IMG/VR virus record: IMGVR_UViG_3300044613_003216 | Coordinates: 1-29,144 of that record | DNA length: 29,144 nt | Direction: 5' to 3' (one strand) | Source of the DNA: a virus | In this document: one piece after another, positions 6,609 through 24,837 of the stretch | Layout of the letters: the number at the start of each line of letters is the position of its first letter | Numbering within the stretch: the first letter of the stretch is position 1 | Notes under the pieces: model-generated | What the model was told of the DNA's origin: nothing | The model's input: only the letters and a program-made list of their open reading frames with translations | The model's database searches: none | Translations under genes and position numbers: made by a program

Positions 6609-9600
6609 ATGCCGCCAAAAACACTTACGGCGGAACAGGTCGCTGAGATTGACGGCAAGCAGCAGAAGCCGGTCAATTGGAGCGCCGTAATTCCGCAAAA
6701 GGAAGACGTTCTGACCGCCCGCGTTAATCGCGAGGCGGCGCGTCAGGATGCTCCCGCCATGCTGACGGCCGAGCAGACTGACGCTGCAGAGGCGCAGAAC
6801 AGCGTGGCGGCTGAGACGTCTTTTGGCCGCGCTATGGGCGCTCGCCCTGACCGCTCGGTCGGCCCTCAAGTTCCCGCTCCCAAGAAAGTGCTTTCCGCCG
6901 CAGAGGTAGACCAAGCGGACTACGAGCGGGTCGGCAACATTTCCTACATTCCCACCAAGGACGAGTGGAAGCGCTACAGCGAGCTGCGCCAGCGCCGCGA
7001 TGACAAGGTCGGCAAGTTCATCGAGGCGGGCCAAGCAATAGCTGGTGGTCTTGTTCAAGCGGCGGCGGCGACCGCCTATGCGCCCTTTGACTTTGTAACC
7101 CGCGGCACAAAAGCCTATGACGAATGGGTCAATTCCTCCGCGGAAGGAATGCGCCAAGCCAGCATCAGCACCGCCGAGCTGTGGTCATGGGCCGGTGATG
7201 TCGTCAATGATAGCGTCCGAGAGACCGAGCGCGTCAACGTGATCGACAACCAACTGCGCCAGCGACTCGCCGCGGAGAACAAGTTCACCGGCAACGCTCA
7301 GGCCGACGCACAGATTTTCGCTCAGGCCAGAGAGCAGGCCATGGCGTCCGGTGCCTACGAAAAGACGCAGGAGCAAGAAGCGGGCGACGAGGACACACAA
7401 TACCAGCGTTTCGTACGCGACCGATCCTTTCAGCAGCAGGCGGCTAACATCACCGAGACCAACATCGGCACGCTGCCAGACGGCCGCGCGGAGATGGGCA
7501 TCGATGAGTCGAAGCTCAATCAAGGACTGGTATTGGCCAGCGCCCTCGTTCTCGACCCGCTCAACATTGCAGTCCCTGCCGGTTTGGGTGCAGCGAACAA
7601 GGTGCGCCTTTTGCGCCGAGTCGGAAGTTTGGCAGGCAAGCCGCTTAAACTTGGAAGCAAGGTTGCCGGTGGAGCGGCACAGAAAGCGGAGAACCTTTAC
7701 TCTGGCATCGTAGAGGGCGTCGAAGGCGCAACCGGTGTCGGAGAAGCCGGACAGGCCGCGGCTCTCAGCGCTGTATCGTGGAAGGCGGCAGCAGCCATGG
7801 CCACGCTCAAGGGGAGTGGCAAACTGCTGCGACGCGCGGAGCGAGGGCTTGAAACCGGAAGCATCATCGCCCGCGAGATCGGCATCGGCGGTGTTGGCGT
7901 GTCGCGCATTGAGGCGGCGAGCAAGCTGCGCAGCGCCCCCATCCCTGAGCGCTACCGCCGTGCCTACGATGGCTTTTTCACTTCCGCGGACAGCACACTG
8001 CGCCGCGTCAGCGAGACGCAGGGTCTTTCACCCATCGCCCGCCGGTCGGCCGCAACGCTCGACAAGCTGGGCGCCACGCAGGTCTTCCGCGCGGCCGACG
8101 ACGCAGTGAGCGGAGCGGTGGCGACGGCGCCCATTGCTGTGCCGCTGGCAGCCATTGCACCGGAAGAGCGCCAGCCGGAGATCCTTGGCGCGATCATGAC
8201 TGTCGGCGCCGGTGCCGGTGTGATCGGCGGCAAGATGCGCCGCATGTCGGAGTTCGATGACGCGCTGGTAGCCAAGATGCTGGCCGATGCAGAGATCTCC
8301 GGCGGCGACGCCACATCGATGGCCAACATGATGCCGCACGACAGGCTGGTCAACATGGCTCGCATGCAGTCGGTCATCTCGCCCAAGGCGGACTTCATTC
8401 CCCTGCGCGCTACGGACTACGAGATCAACACGACGGTCAAGGAAGCGATGGGTCTGGGCACGCGCGGCATCTATGTTGACGCCAAGAAGGGGCAGCGCCC
8501 GCGGATCTTTGTTAACCTAGACAAGATGGCGACCGGCGACGTGGCTGGCCATGAGATTGGTCACGCCATCCTCAAGAGCGACATCCTCGGCGGTGAGGTG
8601 AAGCGCGGCATGCGCGCCATGGTTGACCAGCAGTATGGCACCGATGGAGTCGCCGCCCGCGGACGCGAATACGTCACAGCGAATCTCACGCAGGAGGTGC
8701 GCGACGGCACGACCGGCATCCAATTGAACGTGTTGCGCCCTGATGAGGTGACGCGCATCGCCGCGGCCGGTGGCGACGAAGCGGCCGAGCAGTCGCTGAA
8801 GAATGAGTTCATCCGCGAGCGCTGGGCCAACGACACCGACTGGCGCAAGCAGGCCATCGAAGAGCGCGCCGACATGCTTAACCAAGAGCGCTTGGCGCAG
8901 GGAGAGATCTCTTGGGACTGGGCGCGCGACGAGATTGCCGCGGAGACATTCAGCGGGCTTGGCAAGGGTCTGAACCTTTCCGGCATTCGTGCCAGTGGCC
9001 CGCTGAGTCGCGCGGTTGGCGCCGCCTCTGCAGGCTTCGAGGCGATGGGCGCTCGGATGCGCGGCAACGGACGACTGGAGACACCCAACCGGCTCTTCGT
9101 GGAGAACCCGCTCTTTGACACGCCGGAGATGCGAAAGGCGGTCAACAACTACGTCAAGACGTTCGACCGCTATCTGGTCGGTCTGGAAAAGGAAGGCGCC
9201 GTCAAACAGCGCGGCACGCCGATTGCGCCGACCGGCAAGGCTCAGGATGCGGCACGCAGTCCACACACGCGCACCTACAGCAACCGCAATGGCACAGTCA
9301 TCGAGAGCGACCTGTTCATCGAGAGGCCGGACGGCACGCGGGTGCCGAAGTCACAGCAGCAGCTCGACACTCAAGAGAAGGTCAGGGCGGCGACCATCAA
9401 GTCGATCAACGACCGCACCAAGTTCGTCAACGAGAACAGCGACGAGTGGGGCGCGCGGAAGTTGAGCAACGGCCGCGTCGAGGTTGGTGGCCCCAACCTT
9501 CCACTGCAGTTCGATCACTTTGTCCAAGTGCCGGAGTGGCTTCGAGCCAAGGCGCGCGAGTTCGAGGCCGGTCGCTCCAAGGGTCGCAGCTACCTCTACA

Positions 9601-12600
9601 GCTACAACGCCATCGGGACCGGCGAGGCTGGCAGCTACAAGATCAAGAACCTCGGCAACGTCGAGGCCAAGACCGGAGAGATGGTGCCATTCGGCTGGGC
9701 AGTTTCCACCAAGAACCACCTGCTGGCCAAGGTCATCGATCTCAACTCGTTCCGCGCCGCGGCGATCCGCGCTATCGACAACGAGCAGCTCGGCGAGTTT
9801 GGCAACGACCTGCGCGCCGTGGAGTCCGGCTTAAAGCAACTTCTCAACAACTACGAAAACGGCGTTGCGGGCGAGACCGGACTCGGTGTGACGCGCAAGA
9901 ACATCCTCAACGGACTGCTCGGCACCGGCACCGTCGTTCAAAGGGCGAGCAACCCTGTGTGGCACACGCTGAACAACCAAGGCAGCGTCCGCACGTTCCG
10001 CTTCGACCGGCTCAACTATGCCGACCCGCACGGCACAGGCTACTTCCCGCACTACAACAAGATCAACATCAACGCGCTGCCGGACGACGCCGGTCGCATG
10101 TCGTTGGATCAATACGGACAGTTCGATGCCGACCGCAAGGCGGCTTGGATGAACAAAGAAGCGATGAAGCGCGGCTTTAGCAACGCGACCAATTGGCAAA
10201 ACGCCGACGCGCAGGCATTCCAAGCGGCGGATGGGCAGTATCGGCAGCAGTTTCCGGCGGGTGGTGCGGCGCAGCGTGGGAGTGCTATGCCGGATGCTAC
10301 AACCACATCAAAGGCTGCCAAAACGCTGGAAGACCTCAAGCGCACTTCGTTCATTCCTACCAAAGTAGCGTCTGATGTTCTCGGAGGGTTTCCAGAATAT
10401 CTAAAGCCGGTTGCGCAATTTATTGCAGATCAGCGCGGCAAGCTCGTCGAGGGCAAGATGAACATGCGCGACATCACCAAGGCTTATGTGATGACGATTG
10501 CCTCGCAGGGGTCTGGAGCGAGGGCCGTTGAAGTTATTGCCAGCAACTTGGCCAAGAAGGACATTCCATTTGCCCCCACTCAGGACTTTTTGACCACAGA
10601 CAAACAGGGGCGCGCTGCAATTCGGCCCGAAGAAGCTGCCGCCTATTGGCTTGGCACCGAAGCAGGACAGCGCGCCCTCAACAACGCGGAGAGCGGCGTG
10701 TTTAATCCCAGCGACTGGCAGGAGATGGTCGCTCTGCGCAAGGCATACGGAGATGACAGGTTTGCCACTGTGCGCGCATTTTCGCCGGAGAACATCGCAC
10801 GCATTCCGCAGGTTCTTGCCGATATCAATGCAAGCCGAGGCAACACCGACGCCGTATTGACAGCCGTACAAAAGCTCAACGGAATCTCCACAGGCAAGAA
10901 GGGCTTTATTTCACATCTTCTCGGCATTGGCGACGTGCCGACGATTGATGCTGTGGAGATCAATTTTTGGCTGACCGGAAAAGGAGACGTTGGGAAGCTC
11001 AACACCAAGCGCGCCGACCTTGTTCGCCGCGTCAAGGAGTCGGTTAGCGACAGGCGCGTCAGCGAGGAGTTGTTTCGGCGCATTGACAACCGCATCAACG
11101 GATTGCGCGATCAGGTGCAGGGAGGGGCTGAGGTCGCTCCAGAGGTCTGGTCGCACGTCATGCATCACTGGCTTTGGGACAAGGCCAAGAAGATCGAGAC
11201 GACACACGAAGGCATGTACAGGGCGCAGGCCAGCTTTTTGCCGGACACCGTCATCAGCGACGAAGGTGGCACCGTCTGGCGCACGCTGCAAGAGGCTCCT
11301 GTTATTACGCTCAAAGACCTGCGCGGAAGAAAGGTCTTTGCGTCCTTCGCGGACCTTACAAGCGCGGGCAAGTTGTACAGGGGCATTGATTCAAGCGAGG
11401 TGGCTATACCGGTGCGAACACACGGCGGACCAGAATGGCCGTTGCTACAAGCAGAGCGTGTTGGCGAGGAAACCAACGTGTGGTCTAATCAGGGCGCCGG
11501 AGTTTCAACAACCAAGGCCAAGCGCGCAGACGAGGGCGCAATCATGCTCGTCGCGGCCATGCACAAAAACGCGCACGTCAGCAACACGGAAACGTCCACG
11601 GCGGTCATTGCAACAAACGCAGCCTATGCGCGCGATGGAAGAATTGCCGGAGACAATTTGCAGCGCCTCGATGACATGATCCGCGCGGAGATGCCTGACT
11701 TTGTTGGCATCGAGTCGCCGGACGTCATGGCGTACGTCAACAAGCTACCGTTCCAAGGAGAAAGAAGCAGAAGTCGCATCGCGCAGATTCTCGGATCGAA
11801 AGAAGCCGAAGCTCTGGGGGCGCCAAACTTGCAGCGCATATTGGACGAGATGCGCTCCTCGGAGTTTGACGGACTGCGGATCGGCGACGCGGTCATGGCT
11901 ATCGAGCTAACGGCGGGCGCTCCGGTTCTTAAGCTCGGAGAGAATGGAACGCTGAAGCATCCATCTTATCAATACGCCGTGCGCGGCAGAGTTCTCGGCC
12001 GATTCGCGCGCCCCATTAACGTCGAGACGATCTTCGATGACTTTTACGCGCAGAGAAGGGCGCAGGGTAAGCCGCAGCAAGGAGACAGACGCGCGCTTGA
12101 TTTGGCAAAGCCTGTGCAGGTCATTAATGACGCTATCGCTGACAGGATTCCAAGCAACGCATACACGGCGATCAAGTCTCCGCGGCATGCGCAGCTTATC
12201 AACATGGCCGTCAACGATCAGTGGCGCTCTACCTCGGCAAGCGTGAAGCAGGGAGGCGTTAGTCCGGCAGACATTGTTAGCGCGCTGAATGCATCTCCCG
12301 CCAAAGTGGCTCTTTCTAGGTATGATCTAAAAACCCTTAGCGGCAAGGTGCGCGCAAAAGAGCTTGAGGTCTTCCAGCTAGGCGACTCCGGCGTGTACTT
12401 CGGAGTGCGGAAGGGCGATCCGGCGTCAGACTATGGTCTGACTCCAGATGCGTATGGCTTTGGGCCGGACGAGCGCACGCTGACGCTGGTGATGAATAAC
12501 GAGCGCAAGGCCGGAGGTATGGCCGACGCCATTGTCGTCAAGGCGCTGCAGAATGGTGTCACGGCTTTGGATTGTTTCGCCGTTAAAAGCGGCAGGTCTC

Positions 12601-13070
12601 CGAGTGGATTTTTGCCGGAGCTTTACGAGCGCTTTGGGTTTCAGAGGGTTGGAGAGATACCTTTTGATCCTTCTTTTTACTCGAAAACCGAGCTTGCGGA
12701 TCTGAGGAAATACTGGAAGAGTACAGGGTGGGACGAGTCGGCAGGAATGCCTTCAATCGTCCTGATGAAATGGAAGGGAACTAATGAACAAAGACCAAAA
12801 AGCCTACGAGAACTTGTTGGCCAAAGTTCGTCAGGTGTTCGCCAAGGAGATAAACGAGGGTCTCTATTCCGAGACGCAGAAGGATCTTCTGGACGGCTTC
12901 CTAGACGACGCGGTGGCTCGCAGCGGCGGACCGGACAAGGTGACGCTGGAGCAGGTCAAGGGGTGCAAGGATCTGATGCAGGAGTGCGGCTTGGCCGCGG
13001 CATCCTAGGTCCGGTTGAGGAGCTGATCGGATTGTCTCCGGCCGAGCTGCGCAACCTCGGCATTCAATAG
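6609..13070 (+). CDS. giant polyvalent virion protein (zincin, GNAT-like and other domains)
   Basis: A 2153-aa protein, the largest in the window. Residues 1-110 repeat a short LTAEQ/LSAAEV motif (6-11, 52-56, 95-100). Residues 140-560 are helical with hydrophobic Ala/Gly segments such as AIAGGLVQAAAATAY and ILGAIMTVGAGAGVIGG. H648-E-I-G-H652 is a zinc-metallopeptidase signature, and DEIAAETF at 774-781 may give the third ligand. Later parts include a conserved-looking block near 950-1045, a TIDAVEINFWLTG motif near 1445-1457, a VLGRFARPINVETIFDDF region near 1795-1810 that I recall from other phage polyvalent proteins, and a GNAT-like domain at about 1930-2057 (ERKAGGMADAIV, LPELYERFGFQRVGEIPF). 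Such proteins are thought to be injected with DNA to modify or protect against host factors. Enzymatic activity is unproven. Confidence 0.85.
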   Translation: MPPKTLTAEQVAEIDGKQQKPVNWSAVIPQKEDVLTARVNREAARQDAPAMLTAEQTDAAEAQNSVAAETSFGRAMGARPDRSVGPQVPAPKKVLSAAEVDQADYERVGNISYIPTKDEWKRYSELRQRRDDKVGKFIEAGQAIAGGLVQAAAATAYAPFDFVTRGTKAYDEWVNSSAEGMRQASISTAELWSWAGDVVNDSVRETERVNVIDNQLRQRLAAENKFTGNAQADAQIFAQAREQAMASGAYEKTQEQEAGDEDTQYQRFVRDRSFQQQAANITETNIGTLPDGRAEMGIDESKLNQGLVLASALVLDPLNIAVPAGLGAANKVRLLRRVGSLAGKPLKLGSKVAGGAAQKAENLYSGIVEGVEGATGVGEAGQAAALSAVSWKAAAAMATLKGSGKLLRRAERGLETGSIIAREIGIGGVGVSRIEAASKLRSAPIPERYRRAYDGFFTSADSTLRRVSETQGLSPIARRSAATLDKLGATQVFRAADDAVSGAVATAPIAVPLAAIAPEERQPEILGAIMTVGAGAGVIGGKMRRMSEFDDALVAKMLADAEISGGDATSMANMMPHDRLVNMARMQSVISPKADFIPLRATDYEINTTVKEAMGLGTRGIYVDAKKGQRPRIFVNLDKMATGDVAGHEIGHAILKSDILGGEVKRGMRAMVDQQYGTDGVAARGREYVTANLTQEVRDGTTGIQLNVLRPDEVTRIAAAGGDEAAEQSLKNEFIRERWANDTDWRKQAIEERADMLNQERLAQGEISWDWARDEIAAETFSGLGKGLNLSGIRASGPLSRAVGAASAGFEAMGARMRGNGRLETPNRLFVENPLFDTPEMRKAVNNYVKTFDRYLVGLEKEGAVKQRGTPIAPTGKAQDAARSPHTRTYSNRNGTVIESDLFIERPDGTRVPKSQQQLDTQEKVRAATIKSINDRTKFVNENSDEWGARKLSNGRVEVGGPNLPLQFDHFVQVPEWLRAKAREFEAGRSKGRSYLYSYNAIGTGEAGSYKIKNLGNVEAKTGEMVPFGWAVSTKNHLLAKVIDLNSFRAAAIRAIDNEQLGEFGNDLRAVESGLKQLLNNYENGVAGETGLGVTRKNILNGLLGTGTVVQRASNPVWHTLNNQGSVRTFRFDRLNYADPHGTGYFPHYNKININALPDDAGRMSLDQYGQFDADRKAAWMNKEAMKRGFSNATNWQNADAQAFQAADGQYRQQFPAGGAAQRGSAMPDATTTSKAAKTLEDLKRTSFIPTKVASDVLGGFPEYLKPVAQFIADQRGKLVEGKMNMRDITKAYVMTIASQGSGARAVEVIASNLAKKDIPFAPTQDFLTTDKQGRAAIRPEEAAAYWLGTEAGQRALNNAESGVFNPSDWQEMVALRKAYGDDRFATVRAFSPENIARIPQVLADINASRGNTDAVLTAVQKLNGISTGKKGFISHLLGIGDVPTIDAVEINFWLTGKGDVGKLNTKRADLVRRVKESVSDRRVSEELFRRIDNRINGLRDQVQGGAEVAPEVWSHVMHHWLWDKAKKIETTHEGMYRAQASFLPDTVISDEGGTVWRTLQEAPVITLKDLRGRKVFASFADLTSAGKLYRGIDSSEVAIPVRTHGGPEWPLLQAERVGEETNVWSNQGAGVSTTKAKRADEGAIMLVAAMHKNAHVSNTETSTAVIATNAAYARDGRIAGDNLQRLDDMIRAEMPDFVGIESPDVMAYVNKLPFQGERSRSRIAQILGSKEAEALGAPNLQRILDEMRSSEFDGLRIGDAVMAIELTAGAPVLKLGENGTLKHPSYQYAVRGRVLGRFARPINVETIFDDFYAQRRAQGKPQQGDRRALDLAKPVQVINDAIADRIPSNAYTAIKSPRHAQLINMAVNDQWRSTSASVKQGGVSPADIVSALNASPAKVALSRYDLKTLSGKVRAKELEVFQLGDSGVYFGVRKGDPASDYGLTPDAYGFGPDERTLTLVMNNERKAGGMADAIVVKALQNGVTALDCFAVKSGRSPSGFLPELYERFGFQRVGEIPFDPSFYSKTELADLRKYWKSTGWDESAGMPSIVLMKWKGTNEQRPKSLRELVGQSSSGVRQGDKRGSLFRDAEGSSGRLPRRRGGSQRRTGQGDAGAGQGVQGSDAGVRLGRGILGPVEELIGLSPAELRNLGIQ
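12784..13008 (+). CDS. nested 74-aa acidic helical protein
   Basis: A 74-aa gene lying wholly inside the 3' end of the giant gene, in another forward frame. It begins MNKDQKAYENLLAKV five bases after a GGAAGGGA ribosome site. Its product is a well-behaved charged helical sequence (EINEGLYSETQKDLLDGFLDD). The overlapped frame of the giant protein here is abnormally rich in Gly, Arg, Ser and Gln, as expected when one frame is constrained by another. Function is unknown. It could be a virion or lysis-time accessory protein. Confidence 0.7.
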   Translation: MNKDQKAYENLLAKVRQVFAKEINEGLYSETQKDLLDGFLDDAVARSGGPDKVTLEQVKGCKDLMQECGLAAAS

Positions 13071-13264
13071 CTGCATAACTTTTCAAGCATTCCGCAAGGA
13101 AGACCCTAACGTGTCGCGCTCGGTGCGAAGCCTTGGACAGACCCCAAGTAGGTGATCTGATTATGGCCCAAGGCAAAGAGCGCTGCTTGATAAATTTGCT
13201 GTAGCACAGACGACAGTCGGTAGCGCTCCGACCGCCGCCGGTTGTAAAACCGTCAAAAACGGCA

Positions 13265-13284
13265 CTGCCAGATACACTGCCAGA
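13265..13284 (+). repeat. left arm-type repeats (CTGCCAGA x2)
   Basis: CACTGCCAGA occurs twice, 12 bases apart, giving CTGCCAGA at 13265-13272 and 13277-13284. Related CTGCCGGA copies lie on the other side of the tRNA-like core. The pattern fits integrase arm-binding sites of the P' or P arm. Confidence 0.55.
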
Positions 13285-13320: not shown

Positions 13321-13360
13321 TGATTACAAATCAGGTGCTCTACCACTGAGCTATACCGGC
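13321..13360 (-). other. attP core: 5' half of tRNA-Thr(TGT)
   Basis: Read on the minus strand, 13360 to 13321 matches tRNA positions 1 to about 41: a 7-base acceptor strand GCCGGTA, D stem/loop GCTC-AGTGGTA-GAGC, anticodon stem CCTGA, loop TTTGTAA with anticodon TGT (Thr), and the first three bases of the 3' anticodon strand. After that the sequence departs completely: no pairing partner for the remaining stem bases, no T arm and no matching acceptor strand at the right distance. It is therefore a tRNA fragment, not a working gene. The TGATT-ACA-AATCA palindrome in the anticodon arm is a typical strand-exchange core. Confidence 0.7.
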
Positions 13361-13369
13361 GAGAATCAA

Positions 13370-13387: not shown

Positions 13388-13411
13388 GTCCACGATTGTC
13401 CGCGCTTGTCC
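13388..13411 (+). promoter_or_regulatory. triple GTCC operator upstream of integrase
   Basis: GTCC starts at 13388, 13398 and 13408, exactly one helical turn apart, with spacers ACGATT and GCGCTT. Matching arrays occur at five other places in the window. This one lies between the tRNA-like core and int, so it could control integrase or shape the attP complex. Confidence 0.6.
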
Positions 13412-13427
13412 TAAACGACTAGTCCCG

Positions 13428-13477
13428 CTGCCGGAGAATCCGCCTAAGTGCTGCCGGATCTTGAGGCACTCCGGCAG
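13428..13477. repeat. right arm-type repeats (CTGCCGGA x3)
   Basis: CTGCCGGA occurs at 13428-13435 and 13451-13458 and inverted (TCCGGCAG) at 13470-13477. These differ by one base from the CTGCCAGA pair left of the core. Three sites on the int side and two on the other resemble lambda-like arm sites. Confidence 0.55.
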
Positions 13478-13519
13478 TGCATGCTTGCGCTGTGATTTTT
13501 TCCATGCAATGACTGCGGC

Positions 13520-14641
13520 ATGGAAGCCACACACACGATCAAAAGCAGCAGCATTACCGGAACCATTCACCGAGTCGGCAACTCCCCATTCTGGCAGCTC
13601 AAATTCTACCACCCTAGCGACCGGAAGCGGAAGCGGGTCAGCCTCGGCACCGAAGACCTTGCGCTGGCCAAGGTCAAAGCCAAGATCATTCTCGATGACA
13701 CCGCGGACAAGGGCATCGGCGCCCTGCGCGAGCACGCGCGGCGCGACACTTCCGAGACAATTGGTGCGGCGATCCGTCATTACGAGATGGTCAGCAAGAT
13801 CAATAGCAGGCACGAAAATGTCAATTGCATGCTCCGGTTCCTGCGCGTCGCGCTCGGAACCGACGACGTCGAGGCCATTAAGGCCAAGCCCCTCTCGATC
13901 CTGACGACCGCGCTCATCTCGAAGTACCAGCGCAACTACAAGGGCAGCCCCTACTCCGTCCGCACCAACCTCGCCGCGACGCGCTCGATCTTCGCACACT
14001 CGCTCGAATGGGAGGGCTTCGAGCTACCGGACAACATCGCCACGTTCTGCGCGGCCACGACCGGCATGAAGGCGCCGGTCAGCACATTCGTCCGCATCGC
14101 GCCGGAGATCCTCGAAAAGATGGACGCATCGAGCAAGGGCATGGGCGGGTCCGTCCGCCGCGCGTATTTACTAACTCGATACCTCGGCATGACCCCCTCG
14201 GAGTGCGCCGCCGCCCGCAAGAGCTGGATCGAGGACCGCGAGGACCGGAAGGTCATCGTGATCATCGAGCGGCCGGAGGAAGGCGTGACGCTCAAGACCG
14301 GCCACAATCGCGGCAGAGTCATGAGCCTACCGGAATGGATGTCCGCGGAGCTGCTCGCGGTCGAGGGCGACTACCTCATCACCGGCAAGACGTTCGAGGC
14401 GCGGAAGCGATTCATGGAGCGGATGTTCAATGCGTGGGTCCGCGAGTTCATCCCCGACCGGCGCTCGGCCGCTTACGAGCTGCGACGTCAGGCCGGTTCC
14501 GACATGCTTAACGCGACCGGCAAGATCTCGCTGGTGCAGCACATGCTCGGCCATACGAGTCCGCAGACGACCGCGAGGTTCTACGCGGTGTACGACCGCG
14601 AGGTTGATGTCGCGTCAGTCTGGGATAAGTCCACCAATTAG
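13520..14641 (+). CDS. int: tyrosine recombinase/integrase
   Basis: A 373-aa site-specific recombinase. Residues 10-60 form an N-terminal arm-binding-like domain (GTIHRVGNSPFWQLKFY, KRVSLGTEDLALAK). A core-binding helical region spans about 70-165 and the catalytic domain about 180-360. Visible active-site parts are Y319-E-L-R322 (HxxR box with His replaced by Tyr), LGH with H345, and the probable nucleophile Y355. In the first box, where G-x-R-x-x-E is usual, it reads GMTPSEC, so the first catalytic Arg appears replaced by T225. The gene lies beside the attP-like region and a triple GTCC operator. No Shine-Dalgarno is evident before the ATG. The family call is firm; full activity is uncertain because of the atypical boxes. 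Confidence 0.9.
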   Translation: MEATHTIKSSSITGTIHRVGNSPFWQLKFYHPSDRKRKRVSLGTEDLALAKVKAKIILDDTADKGIGALREHARRDTSETIGAAIRHYEMVSKINSRHENVNCMLRFLRVALGTDDVEAIKAKPLSILTTALISKYQRNYKGSPYSVRTNLAATRSIFAHSLEWEGFELPDNIATFCAATTGMKAPVSTFVRIAPEILEKMDASSKGMGGSVRRAYLLTRYLGMTPSECAAARKSWIEDREDRKVIVIIERPEEGVTLKTGHNRGRVMSLPEWMSAELLAVEGDYLITGKTFEARKRFMERMFNAWVREFIPDRRSAAYELRRQAGSDMLNATGKISLVQHMLGHTSPQTTARFYAVYDREVDVASVWDKSTN

Positions 14642-16398: not shown

Positions 16399-16635
16399 TT
16401 AGACGAAAAAGCGGACAAAACGCTGGCCAGCGACCATCTTGAGCAAGCCGCGCTTGCCGGATTCGTGGTGCAGCCACTTACCGTCCTCGTCGTAGATGTT
16501 GCGCGTGAACAGGCCGTTCTCGGTCGTCACGCAATTGAAGTTGCCAAGGCAGTCGCGGCCAAAGACCGAGACGACTTTTTGCAGACGCGCAGCCGTGGTG
16601 TTCGCTGCGCCCATTGTGGTGGTGTGTGTATTCAT
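16399..16635 (-). CDS. 78-aa protein, unknown
   Basis: Preferred start MNTHTTTMGAAN at 16635. An earlier ATG at 16650 lies inside the third GTCC box and would put the operator in the coding region. The product has a conserved-looking VFGRDCLGNFNCVTTENGLFTR core with two Cys and a basic hydrophobic tail. Its promoter-operator is just upstream and leaves an extremely short leader. Confidence 0.6.
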   Translation of the reverse strand: MNTHTTTMGAANTTAARLQKVVSVFGRDCLGNFNCVTTENGLFTRNIYDEDGKWLHHESGKRGLLKMVAGQRFVRFFV

Positions 16636-16644
16636 AACAAGTTC

Positions 16645-16675
16645 GGACATTACTGGACTTCTGTGGACAAGTCAA
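16645..16675 (-). promoter_or_regulatory. promoter with embedded GTCC triple operator (locus B)
   Basis: On the minus strand TTGACT (16675-16670) is followed 17 bases later by TAATGT (16652-16647). GTCC boxes at 16668-16665, 16658-16655 and 16648-16645 are exactly 10 bases apart and fill the spacer and -10. It would drive the 78-aa gene and the genes after it. Bound repressor would directly block polymerase. Confidence 0.55.
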
Positions 16676-17640
16676 GCGGCTATTTTTTGGGGGTTGGCCA
16701 AGGCGGATTCCCCCACCCCGACCGGCGCCGCCACCCATTTGGTGGGGCGCTTGTAGAAGGCGAACAGCGGGTCTTTGGCGCTGACCTCGAAGGTCGCCGT
16801 GAAGCTGACCTTGGAGCCGCGCTCGGCGTTGTCCGCGGAGGCCGGAAGGGTGCCGTAGGCGCGGGTGCCGTTGCCGAAGTCTACGAGGCACTTGTAGGCG
16901 CCGCCGAAGTCGCTCTCGACCCACTTGGTGCTGACGACGGTGCCCTCGACCGCGACGCGGCCCTCCGGTGCGCGCAGGCCATTGGCGACGGCCGCGGCGA
17001 CCTGCTGGGCGCGCTCGCGGTCCTGATCGAGCTTGGCCAGCGCTTCGCTGTACAGCTTGCCGACCAGCGCGAGCTGCTTGTCGCTGAGAGCGCCCTTGCG
17101 GCGGATGCGCTGGCGGATGTCGTTCAGCGTGGCGACGCCGTAGGAGATCTTGTGGTAGCTCGGATGGCTCTCCGCGACCGGAGGGTTCTTGGCGAACTCG
17201 AACGCCGGAGCTAGGTCGGCGCGCTCCGCGAAGAACTTGGCCTCGCGCACGTCACCGGCCTTGCGCTCCTTGGCTGCCTTCTTGCCAGCGGCGACGCGGG
17301 CCACCGCGCGGTCGCTGGTGAGGCTCAACCATTGCGCGCCTTGCTGCAGGCATTCGACGTTAGCGAAGCAGTCGCGGCCGATGTGAAAGAACCCGCCGGT
17401 CGGCGCGTGCTCGACGATGCAGCTATACAGGAGCGAATGACCGCAGCAGTCGCAGTTGCAACTATTGCCGTTGACCGCACCGGCCTGCTGGTAGCGGTTG
17501 TAGGCGGCTTGATCGCGCACCTCCATCTCGACGCAGGTCTCGAACCCTGTGCTGGAGTGCATTGAGTGCTCCTCGTAGACGTAGGCAAACGCGACCAAGT
17601 TGAGGTCGCTGGCTGGGAAGTTTCGGATGTGTGTTTTCAT
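16672..17640 (-). CDS. Cys-rich zinc-ribbon/OB-fold-like phage protein
   Basis: A 322-aa protein starting MKTHIRNFPAS at 17640. An upstream in-frame ATG would swallow the operator boxes. A CNCDCCGH cluster (C61, C63, C65, C66, H68) together with HIGRDC (C91) near residues 60-95 looks like a zinc-binding knuckle. The middle (about 120-225) is helical, with LSDKQLALVGKL. The C-terminal EGTVVSTKWVESDFGGAYKCLVDF...FYKRPTKW part resembles an OB-like beta domain. I recall this three-part layout from conserved phage and actinobacterial proteins of unknown function. It probably binds nucleic acid. It has its own GTCC-controlled promoter. Confidence 0.7.
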   Translation of the reverse strand: MKTHIRNFPASDLNLVAFAYVYEEHSMHSSTGFETCVEMEVRDQAAYNRYQQAGAVNGNSCNCDCCGHSLLYSCIVEHAPTGGFFHIGRDCFANVECLQQGAQWLSLTSDRAVARVAAGKKAAKERKAGDVREAKFFAERADLAPAFEFAKNPPVAESHPSYHKISYGVATLNDIRQRIRRKGALSDKQLALVGKLYSEALAKLDQDRERAQQVAAAVANGLRAPEGRVAVEGTVVSTKWVESDFGGAYKCLVDFGNGTRAYGTLPASADNAERGSKVSFTATFEVSAKDPLFAFYKRPTKWVAAPVGVGESALANPQKIAA

Positions 17641-17648
17641 TTCAGTGA

Positions 17649-17679
17649 GGACATTACCGGACATTTGCGGACAGCACAA
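17649..17679 (-). promoter_or_regulatory. promoter with embedded GTCC triple operator (locus C)
   Basis: On the minus strand TTGTGC (17679-17674) and TAATGT (17656-17651) are spaced by 17. GTCC boxes at 17672-17669, 17662-17659 and 17652-17649 repeat at 10 bases. The design is the same as locus B. Only ten bases separate the -10 from the ATG at 17640. Confidence 0.55.
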
Positions 17680-17713
17680 GGAAAAAATTTGCCCTCCCCA
17701 AACAGGCTAAAAA

Positions 17714-17977
17714 TCACCCTTCCGACAGGAATTGCTTCAGCTTTTCCTGCGTCCGGCGCAATTGGCCGACCGTGGCGTCGCGGAACTGTGGTGTGAGCGG
17801 ACCTCCGAATGCTTCTTCGCAATCTAGGAAGAATTCGATGGCCATCTGCACATACCGGTTGTTCGAGACGCGGTGAGCGGGCGCGGCGCGATTGAGTCTG
17901 GCGTGTGTCTTGGGCAGCAGCGAGACCGTGACTTTTTTTCCGTCACGACGTGCCGCCGCCTTGGTTGTTGGTTTCAT
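17714..17977 (-). CDS. ribbon-helix-helix transcriptional regulator candidate
   Basis: An 87-aa protein, preferred start MKPTTKAAARR at 17977 (an upstream ATG would cover the operator). The N-terminus is basic, then KKVTVSL (14-20) forms the DNA-reading beta strand, PKTHARLNRAAPAH (22-35) helix A and SNNRYVQMAIEFFLD (38-52) helix B: the Arc/CopG/MetJ pattern. The tail (60-87) is charged and helical. RHH dimers bind tandem short repeats cooperatively, which matches the 10-bp GTCC arrays. One array lies directly upstream of this gene, suggesting autoregulation. It is first in the minus cassette and divergent from the excisionase-like gene, the usual place for a lysogeny repressor. Fold is likely; the link to the boxes is inferred. 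Confidence 0.75.
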   Translation of the reverse strand: MKPTTKAAARRDGKKVTVSLLPKTHARLNRAAPAHRVSNNRYVQMAIEFFLDCEEAFGGPLTPQFRDATVGQLRRTQEKLKQFLSEG

Positions 17978-17980
17978 AGC

Positions 17981-18004
17981 GTCCGCAAACGTCCGCTCTA
18001 GTCC
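17981..18004 (+). promoter_or_regulatory. GTCC triple operator at the RHH gene start (locus D)
   Basis: GTCC at 17981, 17991 and 18001, 10 bases apart, with spacers GCAAAC and GCTCTA. The last box ends four bases before the RHH start codon. Here the boxes are inverted relative to the gene they precede, unlike loci B, C and E. No convincing -10 is seen. Confidence 0.55.
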
Positions 18005-18078
18005 GCACAAAGTCAACAACTGCTAACAGACCTCGCATGGGGTGTTCACCCTATGACGCACCACCCCGAAAAAAGCCC

Positions 18079-18114
18079 TTGCCATTTGTCCGCACTTGTC
18101 CGATAACACCGGAC
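18079..18114 (+). promoter_or_regulatory. early rightward promoter with GTCC operator (locus E)
   Basis: TTGCCA (18079-18084) and GATAAC (18102-18107) are spaced by 17. GTCC boxes at 18088 and 18098 lie within the spacer, and a GGAC in the opposite orientation is at 18111-18114. It lies 16 bases upstream of the excisionase-like ATG, so it likely starts the early operon and is repressible by the box-binding protein. Confidence 0.6.
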
Positions 18115-18123
18115 ATTCAAGCC

Positions 18124-18315
18124 ATGACACCACCACTTGTCCTCACCGTCACCGAAGCGGCCAAAGCTGTCCGCTGCCGCCGCACCGTCCTCGAAAACTT
18201 CATCCGCTCCGGCGAACTCACCGCGTTCTCGGTGGGCGGACAACGAGGGACACGCATCAGCCACCGTGCGCTTGAAGCCTTCATGACCAAGCGCGCCCTG
18301 CGCACCAGCAAGTAG
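18124..18315 (+). CDS. excisionase-like helix-turn-helix protein
   Basis: A 63-aa protein, start MTPPLVLTVTEAAKAV. It has the short MerR/Xis-type DNA-binding form: LTVTEAAKAVRCRRTVLENFIRSGELTAF (7-35) followed by a small beta wing (GGQRGTRISHRALEAFM). Such proteins bend attachment-site DNA and direct excision, or act as Cro-like switches. It is divergent from the RHH gene, which suits either job. The frame is open upstream, but the ATG at 18124 lies after the promoter/operator. Confidence 0.75.
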   Translation: MTPPLVLTVTEAAKAVRCRRTVLENFIRSGELTAFSVGGQRGTRISHRALEAFMTKRALRTSK

Positions 18316-19925: not shown

Positions 19926-20528
19926 ATGGGAAGACCTAAGACACAATCCAAGCCGAAGGCGAAGAAGCCCAAGCCAGAGCCAGAGATTGCCCCTGTGCAT
20001 GTGGGTCGCTCAACCGGCCTCGATGTGCCCGAAGCGAAGGCTGAGAAGATCGCCGCGGCGCACATGGCTGGCATGTCTATCCGCGAGATGTGCCGCGCAT
20101 TTAACACCAGCTACCACACGATCATGGCGCTGATACGCAACAGGCCGGAGCTGCTGGAACGCGCACGCGAAATTACCTCGAAGAACTGGAAGACGTTGGC
20201 TGCCGTAGGGACCGCGGAACTCTTTGAGAGGATACCGGACATGAAGTCGCACGAGCTGACGATCATGTCCGCGGTTGCAACGGAGAAATCAGAGCTGCTC
20301 TCAGGCGGCGCCACGCAGCGCGTCGAGCATGTCACGGCACCAGCCGCCGAGGCTTGGGATACGTTCGTGGCCGGACTCAAGGCGCGTGGCGATGTGGTGG
20401 ATGTGGCGTTTGAACCGGTCGAGGTGAGCGGAGACACGCCGCAAAAGGCCGCGGCAGCGCTCCCGCCGGTCAATTCCACCCCGAAACCGGAGAGCATCGA
20501 TGCTGATGTTCAACGACTTACGCTATAA
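19926..20528 (+). CDS. helix-turn-helix protein (possible small terminase-like)
   Basis: A 200-aa protein. A Lys/Pro-rich disordered N-terminus (1-25) precedes an HTH at about 41-77 (AEKIAAAHMAGMSIREMCRAFNTSYHTI). A helical region follows with VATEKSELLSGGATQRVE near 118-135, then a Pro/Ala-rich acidic tail. The HTH plus helical core resembles small-terminase and Mu-type helix-turn-helix phage proteins. It lies more than 8 kb from the large terminase, so a regulatory role is equally possible. An AGGAGG precedes the start by 12 bases. Confidence 0.6.
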   Translation: MGRPKTQSKPKAKKPKPEPEIAPVHVGRSTGLDVPEAKAEKIAAAHMAGMSIREMCRAFNTSYHTIMALIRNRPELLERAREITSKNWKTLAAVGTAELFERIPDMKSHELTIMSAVATEKSELLSGGATQRVEHVTAPAAEAWDTFVAGLKARGDVVDVAFEPVEVSGDTPQKAAAALPPVNSTPKPESIDADVQRLTL

Positions 20529-23025: not shown

Positions 23026-23222
23026 GCGCCGGAAAGGGCGACGCGCCGCGGCCAATAAACGGCCAAAAATACCGCGAAAACTGGGATGAAATTTTTTGCA
23101 GAAAACGCTTAAAAGTTGTTGCCCCCATGTCCGCATTTGTCCACACTTGCACGCATCAAGACCCACCGGCTGCCACCACGCCGAACGACGTAGAAACGGC
23201 AGCCCATGAGACCCGAACTTAA
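23022..23222 (+). CDS. 66-aa small phage protein (GDAPRP motif)
   Basis: GTG start overlapping the previous stop. The N-terminal AGKGDAPRPINGQKYRENWD is a pattern I recall from many small phage proteins of unknown role (KGD..RP....Y..N...I). The second half (PMSAFVHTCTHQDPPAATT) is low-complexity and overlies a GTCC box array. Confidence 0.55.
   Translation: MSAGKGDAPRPINGQKYRENWDEIFCRKRLKVVAPMSAFVHTCTHQDPPAATTPNDVETAAHETRT
23129..23152 (+). promoter_or_regulatory. GTCC operator upstream of the helicase genes (locus F)
   Basis: GTCC at 23129 and 23139, with a degenerate third unit GCAC at 23149, again 10 bases apart. It lies inside the 66-aa gene, about 60 bases before the next start. No clear -10 accompanies it. 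Confidence 0.45.
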
Positions 23223-23437: not shown

Positions 23438-24837
23438 AAACCACCACCACCCCACAAAGCCCAAACACCGAGAAGGCAGTGCTCGGCACACTCATGGCCG
23501 AGCCGAAGCTCGCTGATGAGGTTGCCGGATTGCATGGCGATCTTTTCTACACTCCTGCCCACCGCGCGATTTTCGATGCGATCAATGAGATCCGCGCAGA
23601 CGGCGGCGTGCCCAACATCATTGCCGTCACGCAGAGGCTCGACGCGCAGAAGAAGCTGACCTTTGTCGGCGGCGCCGGAGCCATCACCGAGTTTCTCATG
23701 CAAGCGTGCGGTGGTCTGGCCGCGCTCGAATACCATACGCAAACCCTGCGCGATCTGCACGGCCGTCGCTCGATTATCTCCGCGGCAGTCTCCATGCAGG
23801 CAGCGGCTAACGACATGGCCGCGAACGCCGACGAAGTGCTGCAGTCCGCCGGAGAGAGTGTCCTGTCGCTAAGTCTCGGCGCCCCGACCGACTCGATGCG
23901 CAGCGCGGCCGACATCGTGCCCTCGCTCCTCGAAGAGCTGGAGGCGCTGATGGACAACAAGCAGACCCTCGGTCTGCGCACCGGCTTTGCCGATCTGGAT
24001 CAGGTAACCGGCGGTCTGCGCGGCGGAACCCTGAGCGTCATTGCCGGACGTCCGGCCATGGGTAAGAGCGCGCTGATGATGAACATCGCGGACAACCTGA
24101 TGCGTCGCAAGGTGTCGGTGCTCTACTTCTCGCTGGAGATGCCAGCAAACGAATTGGCCGCTCGCGTAGTGTTGTCGCGCGCCAACACCAACACCGAGCT
24201 GGTCCGCAATGGATTCGTTGATCACGCCGGAAAGCGCCGCATCGGTTCCGCCGCTTTGGATTTTTCCGGCGAGCCGCTGTACATAGATGACCGCTGTGGC
24301 ATGTCTTTGTTGGACATCCGCGGACGTGCAAGGTTGGCCGTGAGGCGCTGGGGCGTGAAGATCATCTTTGTCGATTACCTTCAATTGGTAAGCCACGGCG
24401 CCGCCAAGAGCCGTGAGAATGAGGTCGGCTTTGTTTCGCGCGGACTAAAAGCGATGGCGATGGAACTGGGCATTCCAGTGGTCGCCGCCGCGCAGTTAAA
24501 CAGGCAGGCAGAGAACCGTCCTGACAACCGGCCGAAGCTCTCCGACCTGCGCGAGAGCGGCAGCATTGAACAGGACGCCGATTTGGTCGCTCTCGTTCAC
24601 CGGCCAGCCTACTACGCGGTGCAAGACGAAGAGCCGGAGCCACAGGACGCGGAGTTAATCATCGCCAAGCACAGGGCCGGACGCACCGGCACCTTGAATA
24701 TGACGTGGCGTCCGAGCCTGACGCGATTTGATGCGAAGGCTCCGGTCAGCAACATCGTCTCCGCGCCACGCCTGACTGACGAGGGCAACAGCGTCTACGC
24801 ACCGGACAAACAGCTCTGGGAGGCCATCAACGAATGA
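23434..24837 (+). CDS. dnaB: replicative DNA helicase (DnaB family)
   Basis: A 467-aa hexameric helicase that unwinds DNA ahead of the replication fork. The N-terminal DnaB domain (NTEKAVLGTLMAEPKL...FYTPAHRAIFDAI) spans about 10-105. The RecA-like motor follows a LRTGFADLDQVTGGLRGG lead-in: Walker A G205-R-P-A-M-G-K-S212, the LYFSLEM motif near 231, Walker B IIFVDYLQL near 310-318, and QLNRQAE plus LRESGSIEQDAD near 350-382. Its length matches bacterial DnaB. A winged-helix initiator-like gene lies upstream and SSB and nuclease genes downstream. Start is coupled by ATGA to the small membrane gene. Confidence 0.95.
   Translation: MKTTTTPQSPNTEKAVLGTLMAEPKLADEVAGLHGDLFYTPAHRAIFDAINEIRADGGVPNIIAVTQRLDAQKKLTFVGGAGAITEFLMQACGGLAALEYHTQTLRDLHGRRSIISAAVSMQAAANDMAANADEVLQSAGESVLSLSLGAPTDSMRSAADIVPSLLEELEALMDNKQTLGLRTGFADLDQVTGGLRGGTLSVIAGRPAMGKSALMMNIADNLMRRKVSVLYFSLEMPANELAARVVLSRANTNTELVRNGFVDHAGKRRIGSAALDFSGEPLYIDDRCGMSLLDIRGRARLAVRRWGVKIIFVDYLQLVSHGAAKSRENEVGFVSRGLKAMAMELGIPVVAAAQLNRQAENRPDNRPKLSDLRESGSIEQDADLVALVHRPAYYAVQDEEPEPQDAELIIAKHRAGRTGTLNMTWRPSLTRFDAKAPVSNIVSAPRLTDEGNSVYAPDKQLWEAINE

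Follow-up and report, generated by a model that had tools for sequence, protein, structure and literature searches.

Phased GTCC arrays at the attachment site and promoters of a phage and their probable reading by a small excisionase-type protein

Introduction

Excisionase sites are usually weakly specific and hard to spot in sequence. Among the better described systems, the Xis proteins of Pukovnik and lambda use tandem sites one helical turn apart beside the att core. In coliphage 186, Apl occupies direct repeats with a 10-11 bp spacing, at att as well as at the switch promoters, and it acts as a repressor of both promoters (PMC7498355). RdfS of ICEMlSymR7A, an RDF of the HTH_17 type, binds attP and its own promoter at sites that have no consensus motif (PMC11963761). 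BldC of Streptomyces binds head to tail and cooperatively to the 9-bp repeat of its optimised site whiI-opt, TGTCCGAATTGTCCGAATTG, where it reads an AT-rich minor-groove tract and a T-G step, the latter through Arg30 (PMC5859096).

The 29,144-nt stretch of temperate-phage DNA analysed here (the window) carries arrays of the word GTCC repeated every 10 bp, which a sequence-only reading had described as a dispersed operator family read by a small ribbon-helix-helix (RHH) protein. As with Apl and P2 Cox, there is a small protein, presumed to bind DNA, and the predicted sites are one-turn direct repeats at attP and at the presumed switch promoters; the likeness to Apl is one of site layout, and binding is a prediction here. 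Unlike in 186, at least two accessory-gene promoters carry arrays as well, the switch promoters diverge instead of facing each other, and the presumed repressor is RHH-like. The candidate reader shares with BldC an excisionase-family winged helix and, in its predicted sites, the GTCC word of whiI-opt, although BldC is a chromosomal developmental regulator and not an RDF. It resembles Pukovnik Xis in predicted fold and RdfS in both predicted fold and HTH_17 type, but the word GTCC is legible and invariant here, the motif is strict where RdfS has none, and there are extra presumed promoter targets. The protein is probably a dual excisionase and regulator of the Apl/Cox class whose site word is unusually easy to read.

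Results

GTCC boxes recur with a strict one-turn period

Exact GTCC-N6-GTCC occurs 12 times in the window, against a mean of 0.78 and a maximum of 3 in shuffled sequence, which confirms the excess. Rescanning recovered the three-box arrays that had been reported at 13388 (+), 16645 (-), 17649 (-) and 17981 (+) as exact matches, with none for the reversed-pattern control, and the two-box forms at 18088 and 23129 are likewise present (Table 1). The distances between same-strand GTCC pairs peak sharply at 10 bp, with 12 pairs compared with one at 9 bp and one at 11 bp, and no other distance from 4 to 44 bp has more than four. Among all 256 tetramers, only GTCC and its complement form four 10-bp triples in the window. 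The dispersed operator family proposed earlier is supported, as is the cooperative one-turn logic suggested for it, and the arrays recur in related IMG/VR contigs. Two of the 12 pairs, at 18238 in the wing of xis and at 24312 in the dnaB gene, were absent from the earlier list; both sit within conserved coding sequence and are probably incidental. An inverted GGAC (18111-18114) lies beside the 18088 array and a degenerate GTCA (18012) past the 17981 array.

The unit in the window is roughly GTCC-R-C-A-N-W-T. Its position 9 is A or T in 28 of 29 internal units and positions 7 and 10 in 76%, a bias that at position 9 stands out despite the roughly 60% G+C of the related contigs. The boxes are direct repeats of the BldC type, combining the TGTCC word with an A/T-rich end in head-to-tail order. 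The minus-strand promoter arrays have sequence in common beyond GTCC; in part they derive as paralogues from a single promoter cassette and cannot all be counted as independent events, while the flanks of the attP, RHH-promoter and xis-promoter arrays differ from one another.

Table 1. Positions in the window of the arrays, the attachment site and the genes around them.
Position	Strand	Feature	Basis or remark
13263..13284	+	Probable left integrase arm-type sites, CACTGCCAGA twice, 12 bp apart	Repeat scan, relatives; putative function
13322..13361	-	attP core, 5' half of tRNA-Thr(TGT), acceptor 5' end to anticodon loop	Sequence
13388..13411	+	Three-box GTCC array inside attP, 26 bp from tRNA edge	Scan and relatives
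13427..13480	.	Probable right integrase arm-type sites, GCTGCCGGA at 13427 and 13450, inverted copy at 13470-13480	Putative function
13520..14641	+	Tyrosine integrase, 373 aa	PF00589 E 1.3e-8; phrog_1 E 2.9e-22
16399..16635	-	78-aa gene of unknown function, probably leaderless	No Pfam or PHROG match
16645..16668	-	Three-box GTCC array just upstream of the 16399-16635 gene	Overlaps TTGACT-17-TAATGT
16672..17640	-	322-aa phage protein of unknown function	phrog_18425/4750/4265
17649..17672	-	Three-box GTCC array just upstream of the 322-aa gene	Overlaps TTGTGC-17-TAATGT
17714..17977	-	87-aa RHH-like protein, candidate lysogeny repressor	HicB PF05534 20.6 bits, cut-off 21
17981..18004	+	Three-box GTCC array over RHH gene promoter/start	Kept in all relatives spanning the site
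18040..18051	.	Conserved non-coding dyad GGGTG-TT-CACCC, candidate operator	Between the 17981 and 18088 arrays; putative function
18088..18101	+	Two-box GTCC array over xis promoter (TTGCCA-17-GATAAC)	One subgroup of relatives only
18124..18315	+	63-aa excisionase-family winged-helix protein (Xis), proposed reader	Family profiles, predicted fold
23129..23142	+	Two-box GTCC array in non-coding DNA of the helicase region; the gene at 23206 starts about 65 bp further on	Conserved in relatives

An array lies inside attP at a fixed distance from the core

The tyrosine integrase gene and the tRNA-Thr half-gene that forms the attP core are both kept in relatives, and the half-gene is nearly identical in 11 of them. 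ARAGORN made no call at 13322-13361, where half of the tRNA is missing, and the anticodon was read by eye. CTGCCRGA words cluster around attP, and the 13388 array lies between the core and the probable right arm-type sites as direct repeats about one helix turn apart, the layout of excisionase or RDF sites. In the relatives' alignment its distance from the tRNA edge is constant across the compared types with diverged sequence, and the GTCC letters are fixed amid variable spacers and variable DNA on either side; in one type of relative the third box reads ATCC. By its position, this array is where binding of an excisionase would be expected.

Arrays overlap the presumed promoters of minus-strand genes and of xis

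At the minus-strand genes, the array fills the space from just past a -35-like TTG to a -10-like TAATGT or TAAAGT. Where TTG/TAATGT are found, the start codon follows the last box by 8-11 bases with no ribosome-binding site between, which suggests that these messages are leaderless. The 17981 array ends 3 bp before the ATG of the RHH gene; its place at that gene's own start, reported earlier, held up on comparison with the relatives. Overall, the three minus-strand genes (16399-17977) start 3-11 bases past an operator and lack a Shine-Dalgarno sequence. A sigma-70 consensus scan gave no promoter above threshold, the hexamers being weak, so the promoters are placed from the conserved positions of TTG/TAATGT. 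The natural reading is that a bound array would occlude RNA polymerase. As at the switch promoters of Apl/Cox-type systems, sites lie at both of the divergent promoters that we infer to form the lytic/lysogenic switch, those under the 17981 and 18088 arrays.

The 16645 array is conserved in four relatives (L006, L007, L008 and L326), and in some relatives the promoter cassette has multiplied further; L007, for example, carries three, before three genes. In a second subgroup (L010-L017; L020-L026, L028), repeated TTTGCA/TGTGCA words, possibly another operator, replace the GTCC array of the xis promoter. About 25 bp of non-coding DNA between the RHH and xis genes (18037-18062) is strongly conserved and holds the dyad at 18040, a candidate site of another protein, perhaps the RHH protein.

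The arrays travel with two small regulator genes

Xis scored 37.7 bits against PF12728 (E 2.5e-9, cut-off 27) and 33.1 bits against TIGR01764 (excise, cut-off 28.8). Its predicted structure (pLDDT 79) matched BldC bound to DNA (6AMA/6AMK) and, at rank 2, Pukovnik Xis (4J2N) best in a Foldseek search, which also returned RdfS (8DGL) and P2 Cox (4LHF), all with modest E-values (6e-3). The profiles and the predicted fold together place the protein in the small excisionase-family winged-helix group. A PDB sequence search with the Xis profile gave no match, and we found no literature on GTCC together with excisionase.

For the 87-aa protein, no RHH profile scored above cut-off in Pfam or NCBIfam. 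The model (pLDDT 62, no PDB match) shows helices only, in the right order, the strand not being modelled in the monomer. It is probably an RHH protein, a plausible but weak assignment. Its two variants are 74% identical and share an unchanged VTVSL strand. Because no HTH_3-type repressor was found in the window or in nine relatives, and because its gene is divergent from xis, the protein is a fair candidate for the lysogeny repressor.

About 14 related uncultivated IMG/VR contigs encode the RHH protein (74-100% identity) and Xis (mostly 92-98%; 89% full-length for one); arrays are present in all of them. No relative of either protein, and no near DNA match, was found among isolated phages, and GTDB genomes and IMG/VR yielded no more distant RHH relatives beyond the close set. 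Where phages that lack the RHH/Xis module encode a distant homologue of the 322-aa protein, triple arrays are absent; thus the arrays travel with the regulators and not with the target gene. No arrays accompany a distant relative of Xis encoded on an Acidobacteria MAG fragment (L351).

TGTCC arrays adjoin integrase genes in unrelated phages

A scan of IMG/VR for TGTCCG arrays found three unrelated lineages in which an integrase gene and a tRNA attachment site have TGTCC arrays between them or alongside. In L037/L126 (33% G+C) a five-box array separates the integrase gene from a tRNA 3' fragment, and an HTH_17 gene lies about 0.6 kb off; in L096/L109 a triple array lies between integrase and tRNA-Arg; L042 has an array next to its integrase gene and a tRNA fragment. 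A search of 40 array-bearing records (among them L037 and L042) and of an overlapping second set of ten (among them L126) detected no RHH_1 gene; these sets covered two of the three lineages, L037/L126 and L042.

Three copies of TGTCCGN4 occur in at least 120 viral contigs, compared with 40 for the reversed pattern. An 11-bp version is likewise found in at least 120 (L152-L271), so the exact spacing is not special across all phages. HTH_17 genes are present in 16 of 40 array contigs and 9 of 40 controls, no clear enrichment. The small terminase Nu1, considered as a general reader, occurred in one of 40 and was dropped. Many of these arrays lie in other contexts, such as late promoters near ArpU/Ltr-like regulators and terminase/HNH regions.

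The 10-bp arrays (L032-L151, 3-10 boxes) come from very different phages of 33-72% G+C. Often they have a primase/helicase gene on one side and HNH/terminase genes on the other, or they adjoin regulators that resemble sigma-70 region 4. Several Firmicutes-like contigs have TATTGT/TATAGT 14-15 bp past the last box, like late-promoter activator sites. Some of the 11-bp arrays are within apparent coding sequence and some have inverted copies.

Discussion

Which protein reads the arrays? We consider it likely, at roughly three chances in four, that the reader is Xis, acting as both RDF and transcription regulator in the manner of Apl. The sequence-only reading had assigned this role to the RHH protein; we reassign it because of the placement of an array in attP, the Apl and RDF precedent, the fold matches, the occurrence of the word in the BldC site and the independent lineages with arrays at attachment sites. 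The control of int and early promoters that had been ascribed to the RHH protein keeps its first part, a role for the arrays at those sites, and loses the second, the RHH protein as their reader.

In the proposed mechanism, one Xis protomer would occupy each 10-bp unit, reading GTCC through the major groove and the A/T-rich end with its wing, and protomers would bind head to tail and cooperatively and bend the DNA. Bound at attP, Xis would assemble the excision complex in the space that separates the tRNA-Thr core from the probable integrase arm sites. Once made, it would also block the minus-strand core promoters at 16645, 17649 and 17981, that of the RHH gene among them, and through the 18088 array it would restrict its own expression. 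The RHH protein, divergent from xis, would stand in place of a CI or C repressor. Several observations count against Xis as reader. The Arg30 with which BldC reads guanine is not conserved, its equivalent in a by-eye alignment being Glu24 or Asn25, and residue 25 varies among relatives. The optimised BldC repeat is 9 bp rather than 10, the xis-promoter array is absent in one subgroup, most unrelated TGTCCG-array contigs have no detected HTH_17 gene, and L042 and L096 have none beside the array; the modest Foldseek E-values and the weak promoter hexamers weigh in the same direction.

RHH operators, such as those of MetJ, Omega, ParG and CopG, consist of tandem short boxes that are bound cooperatively. 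It is conceivable, though unlikely, that the reader is the RHH protein, which would place one dimer on each box and act as a small lysogeny repressor of int, xis, the minus-strand genes and itself. The best-conserved array is at the start of its own gene, tandem sites one turn apart are near the range of MetJ, Omega and ParG, both variants keep the VTVSL strand along with the same GTCC word, and the relatives have no detected HTH_3 repressor that could take this part. Such a reader would leave the attP array and its fixed distance from the core unexplained, however; a role at attP is not expected of RHH proteins, and the array is placed like an excisionase site. GTCC is asymmetric with its boxes head to tail, typical RHH units are spaced at 7-9 bp, and the xis promoter, an expected target of the repressor, has no array in one subgroup. 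Moreover, the neighbouring divergent gene encodes a protein whose structural relatives bind such arrays, and no RHH_1 gene was detected in the unrelated integrase phages L037, L126 and L042 with their att arrays, although divergent members may escape PF01402. The RHH protein may possibly bind elsewhere, perhaps at the 18040 dyad.

Another view, which we hold to be rather improbable, is that both proteins, or a third phage or host factor such as the HTH protein encoded at 19926-20528, share the operator in competition of the CI/Cro type. Both regulators flank the same intergenic arrays, and TGTCCG arrays elsewhere adjoin terminase genes and regulators of the sigma-70 region 4-like (ArpU/Ltr) type, so the word may serve more than one protein; the 19926-20528 protein matches no family convincingly, however, and nothing directly points to a second reader. 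That the arrays have no part in regulation, being local repeats or remnants of a promoter cassette that spread, seems very improbable. The minus-strand arrays are alike beyond GTCC and hence copied, but at both attP and the RHH promoter GTCC persists amid diverging surroundings, and the 10-bp phase is strict.

If Xis is the reader, a single 63-aa protein would couple excision to the shut-off of lysogeny-side genes, the presumed repressor included, and the GTCC word could be used to locate excisionase targets in other phages. The sites themselves keep to a strict word and period, both in the clearly bounded attP and at the promoters of three or more minus-strand genes. A broader proposal, that TGTCC every 10-11 bp is a shared code by which excisionase/BldC-type winged-helix proteins of unrelated phages recognise att sites and promoters, is doubtful; the other contexts and the common 11-bp pattern leave it as a tentative suggestion. 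Were it correct, RDF target sites could be found by sequence, even though RdfS sites are reported to have no consensus.

Two minor features of the window may be added. The attP holds the 5' half of tRNA-Thr rather than the usual 3' half, so the host tRNA in a lysogen would be transcribed from phage DNA beside the 13388 array, and a minus-strand TATAAT lies 9 bp upstream of the tRNA-Thr start in this window. Positions 6609-13070 form a single open reading frame of 2153 aa, whose product is probably a large virion-associated multidomain protein.
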